Assembly: GCF_017875235.1 (NCBI RefSeq)
Contig: NZ_JAGGMI010000003.1
Coordinates: forward strand, 248,001-312,000
Source of the DNA: Asticcacaulis solisilvae
GTDB lineage: Bacteria; Pseudomonadota; Alphaproteobacteria; Caulobacterales; Caulobacteraceae
Direction of reading: 5' to 3'
Length of the DNA stretch: 64,000 nt
Each line of letters begins with the position of its first letter. Position 1 is the stretch's first letter. Below are positions 24,986 to 50,108 of this stretch, in pieces. A program made the translations under genes and the position numbers. Below the pieces are notes generated by a model. That model did no database searches, was not told the origin of the DNA, and worked only from the letters and a program-made list of their open reading frames with translations.

Positions 24986-25079
24986 ATGCGCCTCCATTGC
25001 TGCGTCGGCGCAAGCCTAATCTTTGGCGAATAAGATGAAGCTACAGGACTTCCGGCATCTCGTAAGACGGCGGTAAGGC

Positions 25080-25107
25080 AAAAAAAAGCCGCGCATTGCG
25101 GCGCGGC
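25080..25107 (-). terminator. Terminator downstream of the glycosyltransferase gene
   Basis: On the minus strand a 7-bp GC stem (GCCGCGC/GCGCGGC) is followed by eight T. It lies about 150 bp past the glycosyltransferase stop in the direction of transcription. Confidence 0.75.
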
Positions 25108-25257
25108 GAGTTTTACAGGGAGGAAACGCCCAGGAAGGGCAATCAGCGCGAAAGCGCCGAACAGGTCCAATATATGCTGCATCGCAGCAAAATTCAAAGT
25201 CTTTTGGCGTCTTTGTTTTCAACTCACGTTACAATCGTCGGACAATAATGTGAGCGC

Positions 25258-39532: not shown

Positions 39533-41347
39533 TTAGCTCTTCGGCGGCCGCACGACGAAATCGCCGAAATGCCGCAGAACTTCCGGAGTGGCATTGTAAT
39601 CGGCCAGCGGATCCGCCGCGCGGACCAACGGCGCCTGAGGGGATTCCTGCGCCTGAGCGGTAACCGGCTCGGCCTCGGGCAATTCCAGCAATAGCTGCTG
39701 CGCCACCACCGGCAGACGCACCGTCACCGTCGTGCCTTCCCCGACGTCCGAATGTATCGACACCTCACCGCCGTGCAGATGCGTCATCGCCTTGACGATC
39801 GACAGGCCAAGGCCTGTGCCCTGAGCCTTCATGTCGGCCGCTCCCGCCTGCTCATACGGCAGGCCCATGCGGTGCAGATCATCCGGCGCGATGCCGATGC
39901 CGGTATCAGCCACGATCAGCGTCACAGCCTCCTCACCCGGCTCCAACGTCAGGCGAACGTCACCGCCGCGCGGCGTGAACTTGACGGCGTTCGACAGCAG
40001 GTTCAGCGCGATCTGTTTGATGGCGCGCTTGTCGGCGGTCACCGGCACACTCTGTTGCGGCAGCTGACTGAAAATCTCGATGCCCTTGTCGTGCGCCTGG
40101 CCGCGCATCAGGCGCAGGGCCTGCGATACCGGTTCGCGGACGTCGAAGGTTTCCAGCTGCAGTTCGTACTTCTGGGCCTCGATCTTCGACATGTCGAGCA
40201 CGTCATTGATCATGTCGAGAACGTGCTGGCCCGACTCCCAGATCAGCTGGGCATATTCGGCGTATTTCGTCGGCATGGGGCCGAACATTTGCAGGCGCAT
40301 GATGTCGGAAAAGCCGATGACGGCGTTCAGCGGCGTGCGCAGTTCGTGGCTCATGCTGGCCAGGAAGCGCGTCTTGCCGTGGCTGGAAGTCTCGGCCTCG
40401 GCGCGCGCCGCCTCCAACGCGGCTTCGCGCGCGTGCTGCAAGGACCCGTCGTGCAGGACGCCGTAGAGCCGGTCGTCGGACGCCCGGCGCAGCGACAGCA
40501 GCAGGTAGTGATCGAGCGCTGCGTGCGGCATGAAACCGACATCGGCCCTCCCCCGGGTCAGGGCGGTTTCAATGGCGGCAATGACCGCGGGCCGGTCGGG
40601 AACATGGACCGCGCCGGTCAGGCCGTTCTGCATCAGCTGGTTGAGGTCCAGTCCCGGTGGCGCCTCGCCATAGGCCGACTGGACGCGCCCCGCCTCATCC
40701 AGGCTCAGGACCAGGTGCGGCTGTTCGGTCAGGACCTTGAGCAGGCGGGCCCGCGCCTCCTCGCTGTCGACGGCGCGTTCGGTGCGCACCCTGAGCGCCG
40801 GCAGCAGGCCAAGGCTCAGCGCCGCCAGGGTCAGGAGGACGGCGATCAGCGACAGCCAGAAGCCTTCCTGTTCGTCGGGCATGTGCACGGCGCCGGACAG
40901 ACTGACCAGGGCCGAGAAAAGCCCGGCCATCAGCGACAGCGCCACACCCAGCGAAATCAGCGAACGCTGGTTGAGGACGATCGCCGCCGCCATCGGCATG
41001 GCGACCCAGATGGCCAGCGGCCCGGCGATACCGCCGGTGATGGATACTGCGGTCAGCGAAGCCAGGCTCCAGCCCCAGACCAGCACCCGCCTCATCAGAG
41101 GCGTATCGCGGTTCAGCAGCGCTATGGCACCGATGCCGGGAAAGGTCATGACGACGACCGCCGCCAGCACGAACAGTGATGCCGGCAGGAACAGGAGCCC
41201 GACCAGGCCCAGCAGCAGGCAGCCCGACCAGCCGAGATGCCAGGCGATAACGGCCGCGCCCACGCCTCCGCCTTCGGGGCGGAATGCGCTCGAATCGTTC
41301 GAGAAATAGGACTTTAGCGGCAAGCGGAAAACTCTGTTCGTTGGCAA
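39533..41347 (-). CDS. DivJ-like membrane sensor histidine kinase
   Basis: This 604-aa protein has an N-terminal membrane region with about six spans, a linker with a PAS-like segment (about 205-310), the HisKA domain with phospho-acceptor H334 in 'SHELRTPLNAVIGFSDIM', and a HATPase domain with 'NLLSNAVKFTPRGG', 'DTGIGIAPDDL' and 'GTGLGLSIVKAM'. Length, layout, H position and the sequence 'KYAEYAQLIWESGQHVLDMI' agree with Caulobacter DivJ, the kinase of DivK and PleD controlling stalked-cell fate. Orthology is inferred. No ATG lies upstream; TTG 41347 or a GTG at about 41260 may be the start. Confidence 0.8.
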   Translation of the reverse strand: MPTNRVFRLPLKSYFSNDSSAFRPEGGGVGAAVIAWHLGWSGCLLLGLVGLLFLPASLFVLAAVVVMTFPGIGAIALLNRDTPLMRRVLVWGWSLASLTAVSITGGIAGPLAIWVAMPMAAAIVLNQRSLISLGVALSLMAGLFSALVSLSGAVHMPDEQEGFWLSLIAVLLTLAALSLGLLPALRVRTERAVDSEEARARLLKVLTEQPHLVLSLDEAGRVQSAYGEAPPGLDLNQLMQNGLTGAVHVPDRPAVIAAIETALTRGRADVGFMPHAALDHYLLLSLRRASDDRLYGVLHDGSLQHAREAALEAARAEAETSSHGKTRFLASMSHELRTPLNAVIGFSDIMRLQMFGPMPTKYAEYAQLIWESGQHVLDMINDVLDMSKIEAQKYELQLETFDVREPVSQALRLMRGQAHDKGIEIFSQLPQQSVPVTADKRAIKQIALNLLSNAVKFTPRGGDVRLTLEPGEEAVTLIVADTGIGIAPDDLHRMGLPYEQAGAADMKAQGTGLGLSIVKAMTHLHGGEVSIHSDVGEGTTVTVRLPVVAQQLLLELPEAEPVTAQAQESPQAPLVRAADPLADYNATPEVLRHFGDFVVRPPKS

Positions 41348-41912
41348 ACCCTTGTATTTTAGCCGGATTCCGTCCCGTTACGAAACTTATCGCGCCTTAA
41401 GGGAGAAATACCGGCGGTAATCGCTGAAACAGTACGATTCGGGATACAGCCACAGGCTGTGAATACCATGGACAGCCGCCAGCCGCCGCACACAATTTAC
41501 ACCTGATTTGGCCGTAATTCAGTTCAGGGCCGCAAACGACTGATACTTGCCCCCTTTAGTACCAAAAAGGCGTTATATCGCAGTGGCTTCGGACAGCCTT
41601 CCACATATCGCGCTTTATCCCAATACCGTCACAGCCCGGACGGAACTGTTCCATTATGGCAAAAGTTAGCCCGCATTGGGTCAAACCACATCGCTCTCTT
41701 ATAAGTTTCGGCGCATCAATCAGGGGCTCTGCAAGGCAAGCCTGCTGGCGGACGGGTTCCATTACCTCCCGGCAATCCCGAATCCGTCCGCCCTATGCGC
41801 CAGAATGGTACAGACATGCCGTGCAGAACGGGGAAAATGCCGCGAAACAAGGCGGCCGTGGTGCTGATGACAGATATCAGCATATGTATTGTTCAGGGCT
41901 GGAAACGTGAAA
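41348..41912. other. 565-bp intergenic region with a long inverted repeat
   Basis: It lies between the divergent kinase gene and a small membrane-protein gene. A perfect 9-bp inverted repeat, GGCGGACGG (41747-41755) and CCGTCCGCC (41784-41792), encloses 28 nt. Short frames here have no protein-like features. Promoters of both flanking genes must lie here. No riboswitch class was recognised. Confidence 0.45.
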
Positions 41913-42101
41913 ATGGCGTCAATTGTCGAAACCACTCAGGTCGTAGCTGTACTGGCACTCCTGCCGATTATCCTGGTGTGCCTGCTGATTATGGAACCCT
42001 TTGACCACATCCGCTTCCGGATGCCCAAATGGCCCCGGGTGCGCGTGACGCGGCAAAAGGCCACTCGGACCCGTCCGGCGCTTGAGTCCGAACTGGCGTA
42101 G
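41913..42101 (+). CDS. Small membrane protein
   Basis: This 62-aa protein has one strong hydrophobic segment ('VVAVLALLPIILVCLLIM', about 9-26) followed by a basic cytoplasmic-type tail ('RMPKWPRVRVTRQKATRTR'). The start at 41913 gives a proper membrane anchor; its ribosome site is weak. It is followed after 41 bp by another small membrane protein. Function unknown. Confidence 0.5.
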   Translation: MASIVETTQVVAVLALLPIILVCLLIMEPFDHIRFRMPKWPRVRVTRQKATRTRPALESELA

Positions 42102-42142
42102 AACTTGCTGTGCTTCCGCGCATAACCGTGGAGGAAACAGAA

Positions 42143-42259
42143 ATGACAACGGTATTGGATATCGCGCGCGGCATGGCGCTCCTGCCCCTGGCCCTGGTTC
42201 TGGCGCTGTTTCTGGGCGTGCGGGAGATGGTCAGCAAGCGCGGGCGACAGACGGTATAG
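42143..42259 (+). CDS. Very small membrane protein (38 aa)
   Basis: The ATG is preceded by GTGGAGGAAACAGAA, a good ribosome site. The protein has one hydrophobic helix ('GMALLPLALVLALFLGV', about 10-26) and a basic end ('VSKRGRQTV'). With the 41913 gene it may form a two-gene unit of small membrane proteins. Function unknown. Confidence 0.5.
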   Translation: MTTVLDIARGMALLPLALVLALFLGVREMVSKRGRQTV

Positions 42260-42419
42260 TTTCTCGATAAACCTTCGCATCCCTTTCTTAGATCCAGCCC
42301 TATTGGAGTTGGACACGACGGTGGGATTGGCTACGCTGCGCTCCGCCGAACTCGTGACATGTTCCACATGTCACTCGTTTCGAACCCAGTGGGTGAGAAG
42401 CCGCACCGGCCAGATATTT

Positions 42420-42456
42420 AAAAAGCCAGGCATCCCGGGGGATGCCTGGCTTTTTT
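42420..42456. terminator. Perfect bidirectional terminator at the island edge
   Basis: AAAAAGCCAGGCATCCC (42420-42436) and its exact complement GGGATGCCTGGCTTTTT (42439-42455) surround two G. It terminates in both directions and lies directly 3' of the tRNA-Ser-like end on the minus strand, where a tRNA terminator would be expected. Confidence 0.92.
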
Positions 42457-42459
42457 AAA

Positions 42460-42477
42460 TGGCGGAGACGGTGGGAT
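42460..42477 (-). other. tRNA-Ser 3'-end remnant, probable integration (att) site
   Basis: On the minus strand this reads ATCCCACCGTCTCCGCCA: the 3' side of a T-stem, a 7-nt acceptor strand, discriminator G and CCA, as in a tRNA-Ser. The rest of a tRNA is absent. An 18-bp 3'-end duplicate is typical of att sites left by tRNA-targeting integrases. A 12-bp part (GACGGTGGGATT) also occurs at 42317-42328. Confidence 0.6.
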
Positions 42478-42548
42478 ACTCTCCCAACATTTCAACCCCA
42501 AAGAAATCCCCGTGTAGCAACGAACAAGCGCCTAGTGGGAATAGAAAC

Positions 42549-42586
42549 TGTGTACCAGTTTTGTGTACCAGTGCAATTAATTGCAC
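42549..42586 (+). repeat. Direct repeat plus perfect palindrome in the RT leader
   Basis: TGTGTACCAGT occurs at 42549-42559 and 42562-42572 (13-bp period). It runs directly into GTGCAATTAATTGCAC (42571-42586), a perfect 16-bp palindrome. The palindrome's core recurs after the RT gene at 44012-44025. Confidence 0.75.
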
Positions 42587-42634
42587 GGAAAAATGCAGAG
42601 CCGCTACGGCTTAACGTATCAGCAAGGCAGTCGC

Positions 42635-42673
42635 GGGTAACCAACGTTCGATAATCCACAGCATTTGTTACCC
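42635..42673 (+). ncRNA. Predicted stem-loop in the reverse-transcriptase leader
   Basis: GGGTAAC (42635-42641) and GTTACCC (42667-42673) pair with a 25-nt loop. The arms can be extended to 10 nt with one mismatch. The structure ends 10 nt before the RT ATG. With the upstream palindrome it makes a structured non-coding leader of about 200 nt. Several RT-based defence systems use a non-coding RNA at this position, so an RNA gene is possible but not shown. Confidence 0.35.
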
Positions 42674-42683
42674 CCGAGTTGCC

Positions 42684-43997
42684 ATGATCACTTTGAAGAT
42701 ATCGGGGCATTTGCTGGCCCTATCCGCCAATGACCCGCCATTCAAAGAAATTGCCAAGACAATCCAGGCCGCATACCGGCGCAAAAAGAAGCTATGGAAA
42801 GCGATTGAAGGCGCGCAGACCCTTGCAGACTTGAAGCAGGCTCAACATTTTTACGCCGCCTCGCCTTCCGTAAAACTCACGTACTTTCTCGATGAAGCTA
42901 AAAACAGCGCTAACAAAAAGACCGAGAGTTTCGGCCACTATGACGCATTATCCAAGGCGACAAATCTGTTCGCTCCAATAGATGAGCCCGTGGCCGTTAT
43001 TGGCAAACGGATCAATCCAACTAAGGGGCCACGCCCCTACTGCTCATTTGGAATAAAACATAAAGTTGGGCAGAAGATCATCGCGGAGCTTGTGCAACAG
43101 CAGTTTGCCCCAAAGCCCTATCAGTACAATGTTTCAGGTAAGGGCATTCAAAAAGCGGTGGTCGAAATCAAAAAGCTTGTCGCCGCCGGCTATAATTCAG
43201 TCCTCCGACTGGACGTCAAAAAATTCTTTGACAGCTTTCACCATGATGCTCTAACCACGGCGCTACCGGTAGATAAAGGGCTATTGCAGCACTGTGCTAT
43301 CGGGAAGCACTACGACGCTGAAGTGGTTACGCAGAGTACCGCGCAATCGTTCCTCAGCGCTCTGGAGAAATACGCCGATCTCGTCAGTCACGCGGGTATA
43401 CCGCTCGGCAGCGCGGCGTCGCCAATTATCGCAAGCTACTTCATGTCAAAGCTCGACGTGACGTTGCCCGAAGGAGCGGTCTGCGTAAATTACGTGGACG
43501 ACTTCTTGGTTCTCGCCAAAAGCGACCAATTGGCGGCCGAAGCGCACAAAGCCTTGCAGTCGGCTTTGAACGACTTATCCGTTGGTGATTTTGAGCTGCT
43601 CGAAAAACCGAGCAGCTCACCCTCCAAAATCTTCCATTTCTTAGGCCATACTTTTGAATTTGGCGCAGGTGGCAAACTGCACGTAACAGTCACACAAGCC
43701 AATTTTCAGAAAGTTTCAGACTTTGCCGCGAAGGAATTCTTCGCATTAGAAGACAGCCTCAATGGGGGCGTCGCGCTACATAATCAAGCTGGTTATCACG
43801 CACTTGCCCTCACCTATTCGAAACACCTTTATAGCTGGCTCGCGACGTTCTCCGAGGTCGACAACTTTGTGGATTTAGCGTCCGAGATAGAAGACTGGAT
43901 CGCCTCCTATTGCCATTTGGCCCAGGTGCCGCTTGATACGGTTAAAAAAGTCAAACTTTCCAAGCATCGGGAGGCGTTGGAATATAGCTTGTCATAA
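42684..43997 (+). CDS. Stand-alone reverse transcriptase (putative defence-associated RT)
   Basis: This 437-aa RT has motif A with D177 ('SVLRLDVKKFFDSF'), the 'GIPLGSAASPIIASYFM' block (238-254), the catalytic YVDD (270-273, 'CVNYVDDFLVLAKS'), and 'FHFLGHTF' (317-324). There is no group II intron maturase or endonuclease domain and no intron RNA, so it is not a mobile intron protein. About 100 residues precede and 110 follow the palm, unlike a minimal retron RT. It fits the unknown-group/DRT class, whose members protect against phages; the subgroup cannot be assigned here. There is no clear ribosome site. Base composition is lower in G+C than the backbone. Confidence 0.88.
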   Translation: MITLKISGHLLALSANDPPFKEIAKTIQAAYRRKKKLWKAIEGAQTLADLKQAQHFYAASPSVKLTYFLDEAKNSANKKTESFGHYDALSKATNLFAPIDEPVAVIGKRINPTKGPRPYCSFGIKHKVGQKIIAELVQQQFAPKPYQYNVSGKGIQKAVVEIKKLVAAGYNSVLRLDVKKFFDSFHHDALTTALPVDKGLLQHCAIGKHYDAEVVTQSTAQSFLSALEKYADLVSHAGIPLGSAASPIIASYFMSKLDVTLPEGAVCVNYVDDFLVLAKSDQLAAEAHKALQSALNDLSVGDFELLEKPSSSPSKIFHFLGHTFEFGAGGKLHVTVTQANFQKVSDFAAKEFFALEDSLNGGVALHNQAGYHALALTYSKHLYSWLATFSEVDNFVDLASEIEDWIASYCHLAQVPLDTVKKVKLSKHREALEYSLS

Positions 43998-44011
43998 ACG
44001 GGAATGGCCGC

Positions 44012-44025
44012 GCAATTAATTGCAC
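44012..44025. repeat. Second copy of the GCAATTAATTGCAC palindrome, 3' of the RT gene
   Basis: The 14 bases are identical to those at 42573-42586 upstream of the RT gene, so the gene is bracketed by the same palindrome. It lies 14 bp after the RT stop. Confidence 0.75.
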
Positions 44026-44100
44026 AAGCTGCTCTCCCCTAAAGATTGTGGTTGACTTTCGTGAAAATTGAAACAGCTAATCTTGTCAAGGGAGTGGCTA

Positions 44101-44403
44101 ATGGTAAAACCAATAGATCTGGGCGTTATCAAATTTGCTCGGCGAAAAGACGCAGATCAGTATTTTAAAGACATGCTATCACGCTATTCAATAGGCGATG
44201 TGTTGAATGAAAATGACACCACAGTCCTAAGTGCGTTGCTAAAGAGACATCCAGATTACGATCGGAAGGTTGGAAGCGGGGTTGCTCGATTTGACGTAAT
44301 ACTAGCCGACTACGGGACACACTGCTTCCGGATAATACGTACTGACGGAACAAAAGAGCGCTTCTCCTACCCGACGTGTATCTCAGGAAAAAGTCGGGAT
44401 TAA
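44101..44403 (+). CDS. DUF3223 (DCL-like) family protein
   Basis: This 100-aa protein shows the DUF3223 pattern: a helical start ('FARRKDADQYFKDMLSRYS'), 'LLKRHPDYDRKVGSG' (46-60), 'FDVILADYGTHCFRIIRTDG' (64-83), and a final 'FSYPTCIS'. The family is named after the plant DCL domain, linked to RNA or ribosome metabolism; the bacterial role is unknown. ATG 44101 follows AAGGGAGTGGCTA. It is 3 bp upstream of the HamA-like gene, so the two are almost certainly cotranscribed. Confidence 0.8.
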   Translation: MVKPIDLGVIKFARRKDADQYFKDMLSRYSIGDVLNENDTTVLSALLKRHPDYDRKVGSGVARFDVILADYGTHCFRIIRTDGTKERFSYPTCISGKSRD

Positions 44404-44406
44404 CCC

Positions 44407-45288
44407 ATGGACGGGAACACAATAGACGGGTCGAGCACAGTGCAACCTGATTTGTCCGAAGCGCTCCAGCGGGCTATCAGACGCGGTCCTACCGTAATAG
44501 ATGCACACCTTCGTACACTGCAGCGTGACATATTGATCGGGGAAACCCGGACAACCGCCCATTGCTACTGCCTCCCTGTGGACGGAAACGGGCGTGTTCG
44601 TGTTAATCCTCTTGCGGATTTTCTCTACGAAAGGATCGTTGACTATTCAATTCCACGCCGAACGGTTGAGGAGGCAACCCGACAATTGCAAGAGACAGGC
44701 TCTACGGCCGGCCTAATGAAACTTCAGGCACGAGCTAGAGGTCTGTTCACTCACTTGGCCAAGTCCGGCGAGGGCGGAGAACTTTTATTGTTTGCCATGG
44801 CGGAGGCTGTCTTTGGCTTAGCACAAATCCTCTGCAAAATGACCTTGAAGACGTCTCCGCATGTTCACTACCATGGAGCAGATGGCGTCTACGCCGACGT
44901 TCGAACCGATGGCGGACTCAACGTATACTGGGCGGAGTCAAAAATATTCGGCGATCCCGTCGCGGCAATTCGCGAATGTCTCAATTCTTTGGCCCCCTTT
45001 TTGGTCGAGCCCGATGGCACACACGCCAAACGTGAACAGGACATATTGCTGATAAATGAGTTCGCAAATTTTTCTAACGCAGATCTAGTCATAGGCCTTA
45101 AGCAATTTTTTGACCGCGATACACCGGCATCACTTCAATTGCAGCACAGAGGCTTCGCTCTCGTCGGCTTCGATAGCCTGGCCTACGGCACCGACGGCGT
45201 TGAGCAAACTATGGATGCAATTGAAGCTGCTTTGAAAATAGAACTCCCAAGTTGGCAGAACAATATTGCAACTGACCCAGCCCCCTGA
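44407..45288 (+). CDS. DUF1837 / HamA-like nuclease, 3' end replaced by IS sequence
   Basis: This 293-aa protein matches DUF1837, the domain of HamA (Hachiman) and AbpA anti-phage effectors. It has '[17 protein letters not shown]' with E125, '[12 protein letters not shown]' with D159, and '[13 protein letters not shown]' with E177 and K179, a PD-(D/E)xK-type nuclease core. The last five codons and the stop (45273-45288) lie inside the left end of the IS3 element, so the original C-terminus is lost, though the core is whole. HamA normally pairs with the helicase HamB, which would restrain it; none is seen. The partner upstream is a DUF3223 protein instead. Confidence 0.82.
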
Positions 45289-45333
45289 ATTCCGGCCAGC
45301 AATTTGCAGAGTCGTCGATGAAGAGGATGGCCA

Positions 45334-45600
45334 ATGCGCAAGAGCCGCTTTACGGAACAGCAGATCATATCGATGATCAGGGAACACGACGCCGGAGTTT
45401 CGGCGGCGGATTTGTGCCGCCGGCATGGTTTGTCGGAGGCGACATTTTACAAATACAAAGCCAAATTCGGCGGCATGACGGTGTCCGATGCGCAGAAGCT
45501 TCGAACCCTGGAGCAGGAAAACGGTCGGCTGAAGCGCTTGCTCGCCGAGGCGATGCTGGACAATGCTGCGCTGAAGGACCTGGCGACAAAAAACTACTGA
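45334..45600 (+). CDS. IS3-family transposase OrfA (helix-turn-helix)
   Basis: This 88-aa DNA-binding subunit has '[17 protein letters not shown]' and the HTH '[20 protein letters not shown]', followed by a leucine-zipper-like region ('[20 protein letters not shown]'). It ends just after the slippery site and supplies the N-terminus of the OrfAB fusion transposase. Confidence 0.95.
45588..45594 (+). promoter_or_regulatory. Programmed -1 frameshift site A AAA AAC
   Basis: The heptamer is in the correct register for OrfA (A-AAA-AAC, codons Lys-Asn). The OrfA stop follows 3 codons later (TGA 45598-45600), and OrfB continues in the -1 frame from CTA at 45594. This is the canonical IS3 arrangement. 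Confidence 0.9.
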
Positions 45601-46514
45601 CGCCCGATGTGAAGCGACGGGCCGTACAGTCGATCATGACTGAGCATGGCTTGAGCGAACGTCGGGCGTGTCGCCTGGCTGAACTGGACCGGTCAACGTT
45701 TCAGTACGAGAAGCAAGTTGGCGGTGACGACACCCTGCGCACGCGCTTGCGTGAACTGGCCGGTGAACGCCGTCGGTTTGGCTATCGGCGCCTTGGCATC
45801 CTGTTGGCCCGCGAGGGCTTGGGCGCCAACCACAAGAAACTCTACCGGATCTATGCGGAGGAGAAGCTTGCCGTCCGCCGCCGTAGGGGCCGCAAGCGTG
45901 CGCTGGGAACGCGCCGTCCTATGACGTTACCGACAAGGCCGAATGAGCGCTGGAGCCTCGACTTCGTCTCTGACGCCTTGACCAACGGCCGACGGTTCCG
46001 CGTCTTGTGCGTGGTCGACGACTACAGCCGCGAGGCCTTGGCTACGCTGCCGGAGTTCTCGATCTCGGGCCTGCGGCTGGCTCGTGAACTCGATCGGCTT
46101 ATCGCCGCTCGCGGCCGGCCGAAAACCATCGTCTCCGACAACGGCACCGAGATGACCAGCCATGCCGTCTTCAAATGGGCCCAGGATCGCCGCGTCGAAT
46201 GGCACTACATCGCCCCTGGCAAACCCACCCAGAACGCCTTCATTGAAAGCTTCAACGGCCGCCTGCGGGACGAATGCCTCAACGAGCATCTGTTCGACAG
46301 GCTCTGCGAGGCCCGCCAGATTATCGAGGCCTGGCGTATCGACTACAATCTCAACCGGCCGCACACTTCGCTCGGCGGGCTGGCGCCGAGCCAGTTTGCT
46401 CAAAAATACCACCCACGACGGCCCGCTGCGCTTGAGCTCCGCAAGGGCTCCGCTCCGCGGGCCTTGACCCCGAACCAACAAACAGAAAGAAAGGCGAACG
46501 GACTCTCAGAATGA
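45594..46514 (+). CDS. IS3-family transposase OrfB (DDE integrase domain)
   Basis: The frame is entered by -1 slippage and gives about 306 aa. It has an HTH_21-type region ('[18 protein letters not shown]', '[20 protein letters not shown]') and the rve integrase core. The DDE residues are the D in '[10 protein letters not shown]', the D in 'IVSDNGTEM', and the E in '[19 protein letters not shown]'. '[18 protein letters not shown]' is the typical end. No internal stop or frameshift is seen, so the IS is probably still active. Confidence 0.95.
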
Positions 46515-46791
46515 ACGGCCCGGATCAAGGGGCTGGGTCACCATTTCAACAACAACTTTGCAGGGCAGGCGCGTAAGCGATGAGAGAACTGACCCAGTGG
46601 GAATTTGACATCTATACGCGCTCAGACTTTCCCAAGTTCTCGGTGGCGTAGACAGGCCGTTCGCCAGGAGCAATCAGCCCGACAGAAATAAGCCTCGGTC
46701 CCTTGAAACATTTTGATTGAACTTGGAGGTCTTAAAGTAATCTATAGTCTGCGAATCGTCCAAGGAGAGCGCCATTACTTCCATAACAACC

Positions 46792-48660
46792 ATGTCTGCC
46801 AGCCAGTTTGCGACAGGTTTCGCGTTAAGGCCAAATCTAGTGGCGTGGTTCCTCGGCGCCGGCGCGTCCGCAGCGTCCGGAATTCCCACCGGCTACGCAA
46901 TGATCCGCGACTTCAAAGCTCAAATTTTTTGCCGCGAGACCAACCTATCCAAACGGGAAATCGATACCGCTGATCCGATCTGGATCGAGCGGATTGACAA
47001 TTTCTTTCGGCAAACTTCGCTGTTGCCTCCAGACGGCGATCCGACGGAATATGCCGCTGCATTCGAAGCCGTCTATCCCCAGCCCCGCCATCGCCGACAG
47101 TATATCGCCGACGCGATCGCAAAAGGTACACCGTGTTTTGGACACAAGGTGCTTGCGAGCCTGATGGCAGGAGGCAAGGTCAACTGCGTTTTCACTACTA
47201 ATTTCGATCCTCTTATAGAGGACTCGACTGTTGCAGCGAACACAATACTCCCTATCGCGGCTCAAAGACGGCCCACCGTGGCAGCAATCGATTCTGCGGA
47301 CCGAGCGCTTCGCTGCCTAGATGAATCCGACTGGCCTTTGATCGCGAAGCTTCATGGGGATTATCAGTCGATTGCGATAAAAAATACTGGGTCGGAGTTA
47401 GAACTGCAGGATGCCCGCATGCGGCATGTGCTTATTGAGGCCGGTAAGCGATTTGGCATGCTGTTTGTCGGGTATAGTGGACGGGACAGTTCGATCCTAG
47501 ATGCCCTGAACGACGTTCTGACCGCCCCGTCGCCTTTCCCAAATGGGCTGTATTGGGTGGCTCCGTCAGCGAGCCGCCTACTTCCGGCTGTCACCGAATT
47601 CCTAGGTCGAGCCAAAGCTGCAGGGGTCGACGCGGCGGTGATCGAATGCACGACCTTCGACGAGTTGGGAGCGGAAATTGTCAAGACGACTGATTTACCG
47701 CAGGCTCTGTTTGATCGCGTTATGGAAGGAAGATCAACGCCGAGACTCGTGCCAGTTCAAATCCCGGATGCAAAAGCCCGGGCTTTCCCCGTGCTACGGT
47801 ATTCGGCAATTTTACTCCAATCAATGCCGATAGCGGCGAGAAAAATAAAGCTGAGCCAATCAACGACATCGGCGGAGGTGCGCGAAATCTTCAAAGCAAA
47901 GAGATGTCGAGCGGCAGCGGCCGCGTTAGGACGGGAGCTTGCCGTGTTCGGGCGGGACCAGGAAATTCTGGAGGCATTGGCTCCGCTCGGCCCGTCGCTA
48001 GCTGGAACGATCGGACTCGATCCCGCTATCGATAGCTGGGCCCTAGGATTGCTTTATGATACACTCGTGCGATCTCTGGCCAGGCAGCGCCCTCTCATCC
48101 CGCGTTACAGGCGCTCAGGCCATTCGCTCGTCGTCGCCACACCGCGCGACGGCGATGATCCCCAGCAAACAAAACGGCGGCAACAAGCCTTATCGCGACT
48201 GCGTGACGCCTACGGAACCGACCTCTTCGGTACTGTCCCCAAACTAAACGTCCCGTTTCAGGAGGGTGTCCTCCTCAAACTGGAACAGGTTGACAGCAAT
48301 TGGTGGTGTGGCTTTGAGCCCTATACTTTCGTAGAACTACCACGACAAGACGCTTTACCAATTCAGCCCCCGGAAGCTCTCTCTTCGGATGACACACTGG
48401 CTATTATGGAGATGCAACCCGGCCGCCGGAGTGATCCCGCAGGTGACTGGCGCCGCGAACGCTGGGCGCCGCGGTACAACAGGGATTGGGCTAACATTAT
48501 TGGCGCCTGGGCCCAACTTCTTACTGAAGTGGAAGGCTCGACACGAAGCGCCTTTGGCATTGAGGATGGCACGGGCGTTGATGCCTTATTCAAAGTCTCA
48601 ACTGTCACTGGGTTTAGTCGTCCGTCGCATCATCATGCCTACTTCGACAGGAGCAAATGA
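46792..48660 (+). CDS. Sir2-APAZ effector of a short-Argonaute (SPARSA) system
   Basis: This 622-aa protein has an N-terminal Sir2 domain: GAGAS (22-26), 'CVFTTNFDPLIE' with N137, 'IAKLHGDYQ' with H188, and 'MLFVGYSGRD' (GYS 227-229). A C-terminal APAZ region follows (about 320-620), the MID/N-terminal-like module found with short Argonautes. In characterised SPARSA systems, guide-directed detection of invader nucleic acid by the Argonaute activates the Sir2 NADase, depleting NAD+ and aborting infection. It overlaps the pAgo gene by 4 bp. Catalytic Asn and His are present, so it looks functional. Confidence 0.93.
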   Translation: MSASQFATGFALRPNLVAWFLGAGASAASGIPTGYAMIRDFKAQIFCRETNLSKREIDTADPIWIERIDNFFRQTSLLPPDGDPTEYAAAFEAVYPQPRHRRQYIADAIAKGTPCFGHKVLASLMAGGKVNCVFTTNFDPLIEDSTVAANTILPIAAQRRPTVAAIDSADRALRCLDESDWPLIAKLHGDYQSIAIKNTGSELELQDARMRHVLIEAGKRFGMLFVGYSGRDSSILDALNDVLTAPSPFPNGLYWVAPSASRLLPAVTEFLGRAKAAGVDAAVIECTTFDELGAEIVKTTDLPQALFDRVMEGRSTPRLVPVQIPDAKARAFPVLRYSAILLQSMPIAARKIKLSQSTTSAEVREIFKAKRCRAAAAALGRELAVFGRDQEILEALAPLGPSLAGTIGLDPAIDSWALGLLYDTLVRSLARQRPLIPRYRRSGHSLVVATPRDGDDPQQTKRRQQALSRLRDAYGTDLFGTVPKLNVPFQEGVLLKLEQVDSNWWCGFEPYTFVELPRQDALPIQPPEALSSDDTLAIMEMQPGRRSDPAGDWRRERWAPRYNRDWANIIGAWAQLLTEVEGSTRSAFGIEDGTGVDALFKVSTVTGFSRPSHHHAYFDRSK

Positions 48661-50108
48661 TGGCAAATGCGGTCCTTACAGAGCTGCCGCCATTCACGCT
48701 TTTGGATGAGCCTCACCTTTCGTTTTCGCCAATCGACGCCACTCAAGTCGATGTCCATCCGCTACGCGGGCTCGTGAACTATGGGCCATACTCGAAGGCA
48801 TCGTTCAGCGGCTATACTTCCCGCGTGCGGATAGCAACTGTGGGTCCGGAAAGCGCTTTCCATCGTCGCGGCGATCTGATGAAGCTCCTCCGCAACGTCC
48901 ATCAGGCTTCCGACCGATCTGAATACGTTCCCGAATATCCCGGATTCGAGCGCCTTTTCCGAGTTGCGCTTGAGGCCGCGCCTCCCGCCGCGCACATCAA
49001 ATGGCCTGAAGGACTGGACCAGCTGCCTGGCGACGGCGATGGGCAGCATCGCCTTTACCTAGCCATGGATGCTGCATTGCGTCGGCTCGATGCCGTGCGG
49101 AACGAATTCGACGTAGCGCTGGTTCACTTTCCAGATAGCTGGAACGTGGCGACACGTGGAAAATCGTTTGACGCGCACGACATGCTGAAGGCCTTGGGCG
49201 CCAAGTATAATATACCGACGCAGGTCCTGAACGATCGAGTCTTCACATTTAGCTACAAGGCTTCGCTCGCGTGGCGCCTTTCGACCGCTTTGTATGTAAA
49301 GGCTGCGGGCACACCGTGGAAGCTGGCACCGTTGAAAGGGGTACCTACGGATACCGCCTACATTGGTCTGGCCTACGCTCTCCGTGGCGACCAACAGGAC
49401 GCACATTATGTAACCTGCTGCTCACAAGTCTTCGACATGGACGGAGGCGGCATGCAGTTCGTCGCTTTCGAGGCTCGGGATCCAGTAGCCGACGTCACCG
49501 AAGCCCGGAGAAACCCGTTCCTTAGCCGCGACGATATGCGAGCGGTCCTAGCTCGCAGTCTGGAACTCTATCAGGGACGCAACGGCGGTGAATTGCCGAA
49601 ACGTATGGTGATTCACAAGACGACGGCCTTCAAGGAGAGCGAGATCGAAGGCGCGTTCGATGCCCTCGCTGGTGTAGCAGAAATTGAGTGTGTTGAGGTC
49701 AGCTCGGCATCTTGCTGGCGCGGCGTATGGCTCATCAAGTCAGGCGTCCAGAAGCCGCCGTCAAAGCCGTCGGGATATCCCGTTCCGCGCGGAACGATGG
49801 TGGTCCGAACAGGAAATTCTGCCCTGGTATGGGTGGCAGGTAATGCACCTGACGTCTCGACTAAGGGCGATTACTATCAGGGCAAGAAGAGCATCCCACG
49901 TCCTCTGCAGCTAATTCGGCACGCCGGGAGTGGGCCGCTTGAACTGATCGCTCATGAAGCTCTGGCACTTACGAAGATGGATTGGAACAACGACGCGCTC
50001 TACGACCCCGTGCCAGTCAGCATCCGTTATTCCCAGAAACTTGCCCGTACGATCGCGAATGTCCCGGACCTGCCACGAAATGTCTATCCGTATCGCCTGT
50101 TCATGTGA
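48657..50108 (+). CDS. Short prokaryotic Argonaute (MID-PIWI)
   Basis: This 483-aa protein has the length and order of a short pAgo: a MID domain (about 150-270, 'FDVALVHFPDSW', 'LGAKYNIPTQVLNDRVF') and a PIWI domain (about 270-480, 'AYIGLAYALRGD', 'PKRMVIHKTTAFKESEI', 'QLIRHAGSGPLELIAHEALA'). N and PAZ domains are absent, as expected. The DEDX tetrad of slicing Argonautes is not recognisable, fitting an inactive PIWI that only binds guide and target. It is translationally coupled to the Sir2-APAZ gene, with which it should form a heterodimer. Confidence 0.92.
   Translation: MMANAVLTELPPFTLLDEPHLSFSPIDATQVDVHPLRGLVNYGPYSKASFSGYTSRVRIATVGPESAFHRRGDLMKLLRNVHQASDRSEYVPEYPGFERLFRVALEAAPPAAHIKWPEGLDQLPGDGDGQHRLYLAMDAALRRLDAVRNEFDVALVHFPDSWNVATRGKSFDAHDMLKALGAKYNIPTQVLNDRVFTFSYKASLAWRLSTALYVKAAGTPWKLAPLKGVPTDTAYIGLAYALRGDQQDAHYVTCCSQVFDMDGGGMQFVAFEARDPVADVTEARRNPFLSRDDMRAVLARSLELYQGRNGGELPKRMVIHKTTAFKESEIEGAFDALAGVAEIECVEVSSASCWRGVWLIKSGVQKPPSKPSGYPVPRGTMVVRTGNSALVWVAGNAPDVSTKGDYYQGKKSIPRPLQLIRHAGSGPLELIAHEALALTKMDWNNDALYDPVPVSIRYSQKLARTIANVPDLPRNVYPYRLFM

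Follow-up and report, generated by a model that had tools for sequence, protein, structure and literature searches.

A stand-alone reverse transcriptase at the tRNA-Ser(GCT) border of a probable genomic island in Asticcacaulis solisilvae, with a leader that is most likely not a templating RNA

Does the non-coding stretch in front of a stand-alone reverse transcriptase (RT) gene of Asticcacaulis solisilvae encode a structured RNA that serves as a template, as a preliminary description of a candidate DRT-type system supposed, or can its structure be explained by the DNA in which the gene lies? The gene was studied within a window of 64,000 nucleotides (the whole stretch of DNA that was analysed) on contig C3. 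The features on which the argument turns are as follows, in window coordinates, with C20 denoting a second contig of the assembly and L043 a locus further along C3.

42460-42477, no strand assigned: att core TGGCGGAGACGGTGGGAT, which duplicates the 3' end of tRNA-Ser(GCT) and forms the left border of the island; an identical 18 bp lies at C20:11477-11494, and homology with three relatives stops at 42477.
42550-42570, plus strand: two copies of GTGTACCA with an offset of 13 bp, probably arm-type sites for the integrase; C20:11389-11409 has the same pair and spacing.
42571-42586, no strand assigned: perfect 16-bp palindrome GTGCAATTAATTGCAC, a dispersed element with 10 places in the genome at up to one mismatch, two of them beside the RT.
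42587-42683, plus strand: remaining 97-nt leader, with a hairpin at about 42626-42683 that reaches the start codon (MFE -29.1 kcal/mol, z -2.3).
42684-43997, plus strand: stand-alone RT of 437 aa with YVDD (open frame, Pfam, PADLOC and NCBIfam profiles, motif check).
44010-44025, no strand assigned: imperfect second copy of the palindrome, 75 nt upstream of the HamC start codon (genome pattern search).
44101-44403, plus strand: HamC (DUF3223) of Hachiman (PADLOC HamC, 124 bits).
44407-45288, plus strand: HamA (DUF1837) of Hachiman (PADLOC HamA, 332 bits), its final codons within the insertion sequence (IS) that starts at 45273.
45273-46541, plus strand: IS, IS3-like by eye, separating HamA from HamB; an identical copy lies at L043:1182-2450.

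The observations from which the question arose are sound. The direct repeat, the perfect palindrome and the stem-loop that had been described in the 200-nt leader are all real, and the statement that the stem-loop ends 10 nt before the ATG is correct for the inner stem (GGGTAAC/GTTACCC), while outer pairs extend the full fold to the ATG. The RT had been described as stand-alone with an intact YVDD site and without a maturase or endonuclease domain, and this too was confirmed: YVDD lies at residue 270 of the 437-aa frame, RVT_1 (59.7 bits) is the sole domain above cut-off in the Pfam scan, all others falling under theirs, and no maturase or nuclease domain is found above the Pfam cut-offs. The gene has a GC content of 50% vs 60% for the window. 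Two AlphaFold2 models of the RT, with a mean pLDDT of 37 and 36, were too poor for use.

The leader begins shortly after what appears to be the border of an integrated element. The second copy of the 18-bp att core, on C20, sits at an intact tRNA-Ser(GCT), and this tRNA is adjoined by the gene for a 605-aa tyrosine integrase (C20:9580-11397) whose two domains, Phage_integrase at 38.8 bits and DUF6538 at 51.3 bits, each exceed the cut-off. A search with window positions 41300-42700 against 61 genomes matched 17, including that of A. solisilvae itself, and six loci taken from the 16 other matching genomes, all of the same genus, were checked for an empty site. Such a site is present in three of the six (L054, L055 and L057): the stretch homologous to the window ends at 42477, that homologous to C20 begins at C20:11476, and ARAGORN reports an intact tRNA-Ser(GCT) in each. 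As the window and C20 halves meet at the att core in these three loci, the island is absent from that site. The other three loci match a dispersed repeat and lie near other tRNAs or near none. A duplicated att core with an intact tRNA, empty sites and an integrase gene by the tRNA are the marks of a tRNA-integrated island, and all are found here. Because the assembly, a draft of 34 contigs, has the two ends on separate contigs (C3 and C20), with an IS rearrangement or a mis-join also between them, we infer rather than observe that they bound one element. Just upstream of the att core, at 42317-42400, is a short tRNA-like fragment into which a palindromic piece is inserted, and about 30 bp of this fragment recurs with 88-97% identity in many genomes of the genus.

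The direct repeat in the leader may be understood from its position in the island. The two copies of GTGTACCA begin at 42550 and 42563, and when the 5.0-Mb genome was searched for GTGTACCA, 5 nt and GTGTACCA with up to two mismatches, two matches were obtained, both exact (42550-42570 and C20:11389-11409). The control pattern, read backwards, likewise gave two matches at up to two mismatches, so the count proves nothing, and the weight rests on the matches being exact and on where they lie. Both pairs are located 68-93 bp from an att core on the island side, an arrangement seen in arm-type integrase sites, and by this analogy the simplest reading is that they are probably such sites. Alternatively, the locus could be a DRT-type system with its templating RNA in the leader, for example one resembling DRT10, in which TGTGTACCAGT-TT-TGTGTACCAGT would act as an A-B-A' template for tandem-repeat cDNA. 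An upstream non-coding RNA with an A-B-A' template is known from DRT10 (UG17), according to the available part of the source (PMC12632851). However, the far pair stands beside the integrase and not beside an RT, and the genome holds no other exact match, which weakens the template reading.

The palindrome is not specific to an RT. With at most one mismatch, the genome contains GCAATTAATTGCAC at 10 places (10 matches forward, 9 reverse, none for the control), which is above chance, and the exact GCAATTAATTGCAC is present in 3 of the 61 genomes of the relatives sample, that of A. solisilvae included. Copies lie on either side of the RT, after HamB, after a Bil-type operon and by recombinase genes. 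Among 13 copies in three genomes four are situated 75-103 nt before a start codon, with gaps of 97 nt for the RT, 75 nt for HamC, 103 nt for a gene on contig C6 and 87 nt for a gene of genome G434, and nine are situated elsewhere; three of the 13 are inside called frames. The palindrome may be an operator or a module boundary. A function as a tyrosine-recombinase site was also considered, since copies lie close to genes of this kind on C1, on C20 and in G388, and was rejected, the 10-bp core being found in none of seven other loci with homologues of the C1 recombinase. Besides the two copies of GTGCAATTAATTGCAC in the window, those near defence genes or recombinases are at L042:4480, L043:5248, L044:5755, L045:6110/8236/8272, L127:5112-5139 and L128:1062/1352, and one relative has a 28-bp perfect version. 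On C1, L042:1542-4369 is a Bil-type ubiquitin-like operon (BilA 169 and BilD 555 bits by profile) in a region that adjoins tRNA-Arg and has, by eye, one serine and two tyrosine recombinases. The copy on C6 belongs to a unit bounded by inverted ends (32 and 30 nt), which also holds a 353-aa gene, P63C-like by eye, upstream of ffh (L044:5714-7462) and which has no match at the loci compared in 15 relatives of the genus. A 12-mer of the palindrome is reportedly printed in the available part of a study on secretion in Salmonella Typhi.

What is left of the leader are the 97 nt that contain the hairpin. Their fold was equalled in stability by 5 of 200 shuffles, and a z as low or lower was found in 30 of 533 plus-strand windows of 97 nt, so the fold is not exceptional. 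At gathering thresholds Rfam identified in the whole window only the suhB/mmgR small RNA (25073-25147, minus strand) and no RNA at the RT locus. A relaxed scan of 42200-44450 gave three weak matches, all around a terminator upstream of the island, and none of the 60 relatives had a reported match to 42488-42700. These results neither support nor rule against a short RNA from the last 97 nt. A hairpin also precedes the start codon of HamC (44027-44100), as at the RT, with a z of -2.4 for 43995-44100. The proposal that the leader is a templating RNA was not upheld: the repeat belongs to the island end, the palindrome is dispersed and the hairpin fold is unremarkable.

Taken together, we consider it highly probable that the locus is the end of an island at tRNA-Ser(GCT), in which the RT is an accessory gene, most likely with an anti-phage role, and that the leader most probably does not serve as a templating RNA. 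In this explanation the island would integrate at the 3' end of tRNA-Ser(GCT) and thereby leave the att core at 42460-42477, from which would follow, going inward, the probable arm-type sites, the palindrome, the RT, HamC, HamA and, beyond the IS, HamB. The integrase, encoded at the opposite end of the island on C20, would bind the putative arm repeats, and the RT would make cDNA by a mechanism that the sequence does not reveal.

None of the UG/DRT, retron, group II and DGR tests that were made assigned the RT to a family. The highest-scoring models were generic RT (75.9 bits), UG17 (72.4 bits), RT-Cas1 (54 bits), UG4 (54 bits) and Drt3a (53 bits). When the UG17 model was run on the loci of the class, two of them, which were taken as true UG17 members, scored 460 and 439 bits and the other RTs at most 178 bits; the score of the present RT thus argues against membership of UG17/DRT10. 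It scored 59.6 bits with the group II model TIGR04416 (cut-off 300), 26.5 bits with the retron model NF038233 (cut-off 235), and 23, 46 and 17 bits with the NCBIfam models for DRT2, DRT3a and DRT4 (cut-offs 390, 200 and 450). The PADLOC model Drt9, which has no printed cut-off and no member score alongside, gave 30.5 bits. Retron RTs carry the motifs NAxxH and VTG, both of which are absent here, and DGR RTs carry xGxxxSQ, in the place of which the RT has LGSAASP, a sequence that does not fit. The suggestion of a DRT-type candidate stands in so far as the RT is stand-alone, is without group II features and lies beside Hachiman, whereas the cut-offs for DRT2, DRT3a, DRT4 and retrons, and the UG17 score, speak against it.

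Relatives of the RT are few in what was searched. Two were found, at 21-26% identity (L002/L102 and L003/L147), and a search of the class with the RT protein matched 3 of 385 genomes, its own included. Single-protein pattern scans of genome contigs and viral contigs gave no RT relatives. An alignment scan gave none among the viral contigs, in which 25 stretches had matched a pattern, and one among 362 stretches of the genome contigs, at the same locus as L002. By tblastn 371 plasmid and 2 phage records match the RT, none covering 80% of the query, and among the matches listed those on plasmids are mostly group II RTs. A three-member profile matched 28 of 349 genomes in a sample of the phylum, the best other match having 69 bits in the RT core only, and 24 of 385 in the class, where the best match beyond the three seeds had 62 bits. 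As these scans used short peptide patterns or samples, nearer relatives may exist.

In a tree of 37 RTs, in which the group II label was assigned by eye, this RT and its two relatives form a cluster (94/92) on long branches, those of L002 and L003 meeting, and the cluster falls outside a set of 26 group II and RT-Cas1 rows (97/95). With this RT taken alone, the smallest well-supported set that includes it comprises eight rows (95/94): the two of UG17, and the RT together with five others that belong to no named group. Four other rows of this set were scanned and had the generic RT model as best and UG17 as second or third. In the same setting, AU tests rejected at 0.05 neither a clade with UG17 (p 0.29) nor one with group II (p 0.065) nor one with RT-Cas1 (p 0.060). 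A DRT10-like system could draw on the UG17 placements and on UG17 being the best named UG model, but it is in our judgement highly improbable, since the RT has 72 bits vs 439 and 460 for true UG17, no SLATT gene was present among the RT neighbours scanned (the att end and HamC/HamA), and Rfam has nothing above threshold at the locus.

It could also be imagined that the RT descends, as a remnant or a derived form, from a group II intron or from a CRISPR-associated RT. The scores with TIGR04416 and with the RT-Cas1 model, the two AU values and the group II RTs among the listed plasmid matches agree with such an origin, which we nevertheless regard as very unlikely: the maturase domain is absent, the TIGR04416 score is far under its cut-off and, although the branch is long, the RT is placed outside the 26-row set. 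Domains V and VI of a group II intron RNA, the occurrence of which nearby had been named as evidence for an intron RT, were not found in the window at Rfam gathering thresholds.

The surroundings of the RT and of its relatives suggest a role in defence. HamB (1036 bits) adjoins the second IS copy, which is 1269 bp long and identical to the first, about 143 kb from HamA in the assembly, and HamA together with the HamB helicase identifies the system as Hachiman. The 3-bp duplications are swapped between the IS copies, with AAC on the HamA and HamB sides and CAT on the other two, which suggests that Hachiman was probably once intact beside the RT. We infer from this arrangement that its split is due to recombination between the IS copies or to an assembly mis-join. 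On the other side of the IS, at 46792-50108, is a pair of SIR2 and short Argonaute genes (720 and 704 bits, PADLOC), which we take to be SPARSA. It was considered as a partner of the RT and rejected, as the swapped duplications suggest an origin on another molecule, or a mis-join; this pair and an AbiJ-like gene would accordingly have come from elsewhere.

Both relatives are, like this RT, stand-alone RTs amid integrase-like and defence genes, and have directly upstream an HTH-like gene (a Pfam match under cut-off in L102, by eye in L003), which this RT lacks. Near the RT of L102 are a DUF6538 integrase, an HNH gene scoring 101 bits and a gene for a DrmMI/type IIG-like methylase (247 bits). 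The defence genes of L147, for a CBASS cyclase (477 bits) and a 4TM effector (316 bits), lie about 7.6 kb from the RT; an integrase-like gene (Pfam match under cut-off) intervenes, so that the RT and CBASS genes of L147 may stem from separate insertions. As the RT is stand-alone, without group II features and beside Hachiman in a mobile island, a defence role is plausible, and its anti-phage nature is made plausible by the neighbourhood in three cases. It could be argued that the RT instead serves the mobile element itself, for example in replication or transfer, as no other gene lies between it and the att end and as a DUF6538 domain is shared by the C20 integrase and the integrase close to the L102 RT. 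This seems unlikely to us with defence genes near the RT in 3 of 3 cases, albeit not adjacent in L147, and integrative elements are not known to need an RT of this kind. It is tempting to speculate further that this RT and its two relatives constitute a new, very rare defence-associated lineage, primed by Tyr434 (in an EY pair that is aligned in two of the three RT sequences), with a short RNA from the 97-nt hairpin leader and with the palindrome in front of the RT and of HamC as a shared switch by which the defence genes of the island would be activated jointly, a combination that we hold to be decidedly unlikely.

The reading of the locus as an island end with an accessory RT has two consequences. 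First, the end of an integrated element, with its att core, arm repeats and palindrome, can mimic a structured leader RNA beside an RT, and such mimicry is a trap for the discovery of non-coding RNAs in defence islands. Second, it draws attention to a rare RT lineage that none of the UG/DRT, retron, group II or DGR tests made here assigned to a family and that was found in three regions with defence genes. It may be of the same sort as the 88 of 25,570 RTs in complete genomes that remain unclassified according to the available part of one survey (PMC8934634).

The locus resembles known genomic islands that are integrated at tRNA genes and carry a tyrosine integrase and defence cargo, namely in the duplication of the att core at the 3' end of a tRNA, the integrase at one end, the repeat pairs near both cores, the empty sites in relatives and the Hachiman cargo. 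It differs from them in that the first inner gene is an RT that no test assigned to a family and in that the island is divided, both between contigs and by an IS event. With group II intron RTs the RT shares the RVT_1 domain and motifs, but not the intron RNA, the maturase domain or the level of the profile score. With UG17/DRT10 it shares the best named UG model (72 bits), a non-coding stretch upstream and possible priming residues (Tyr434 and a Ser) near its C-terminus, whereas its score is far under those of members, it has no SLATT gene, and its apparent A-B-A' repeat is probably accounted for by the island end.
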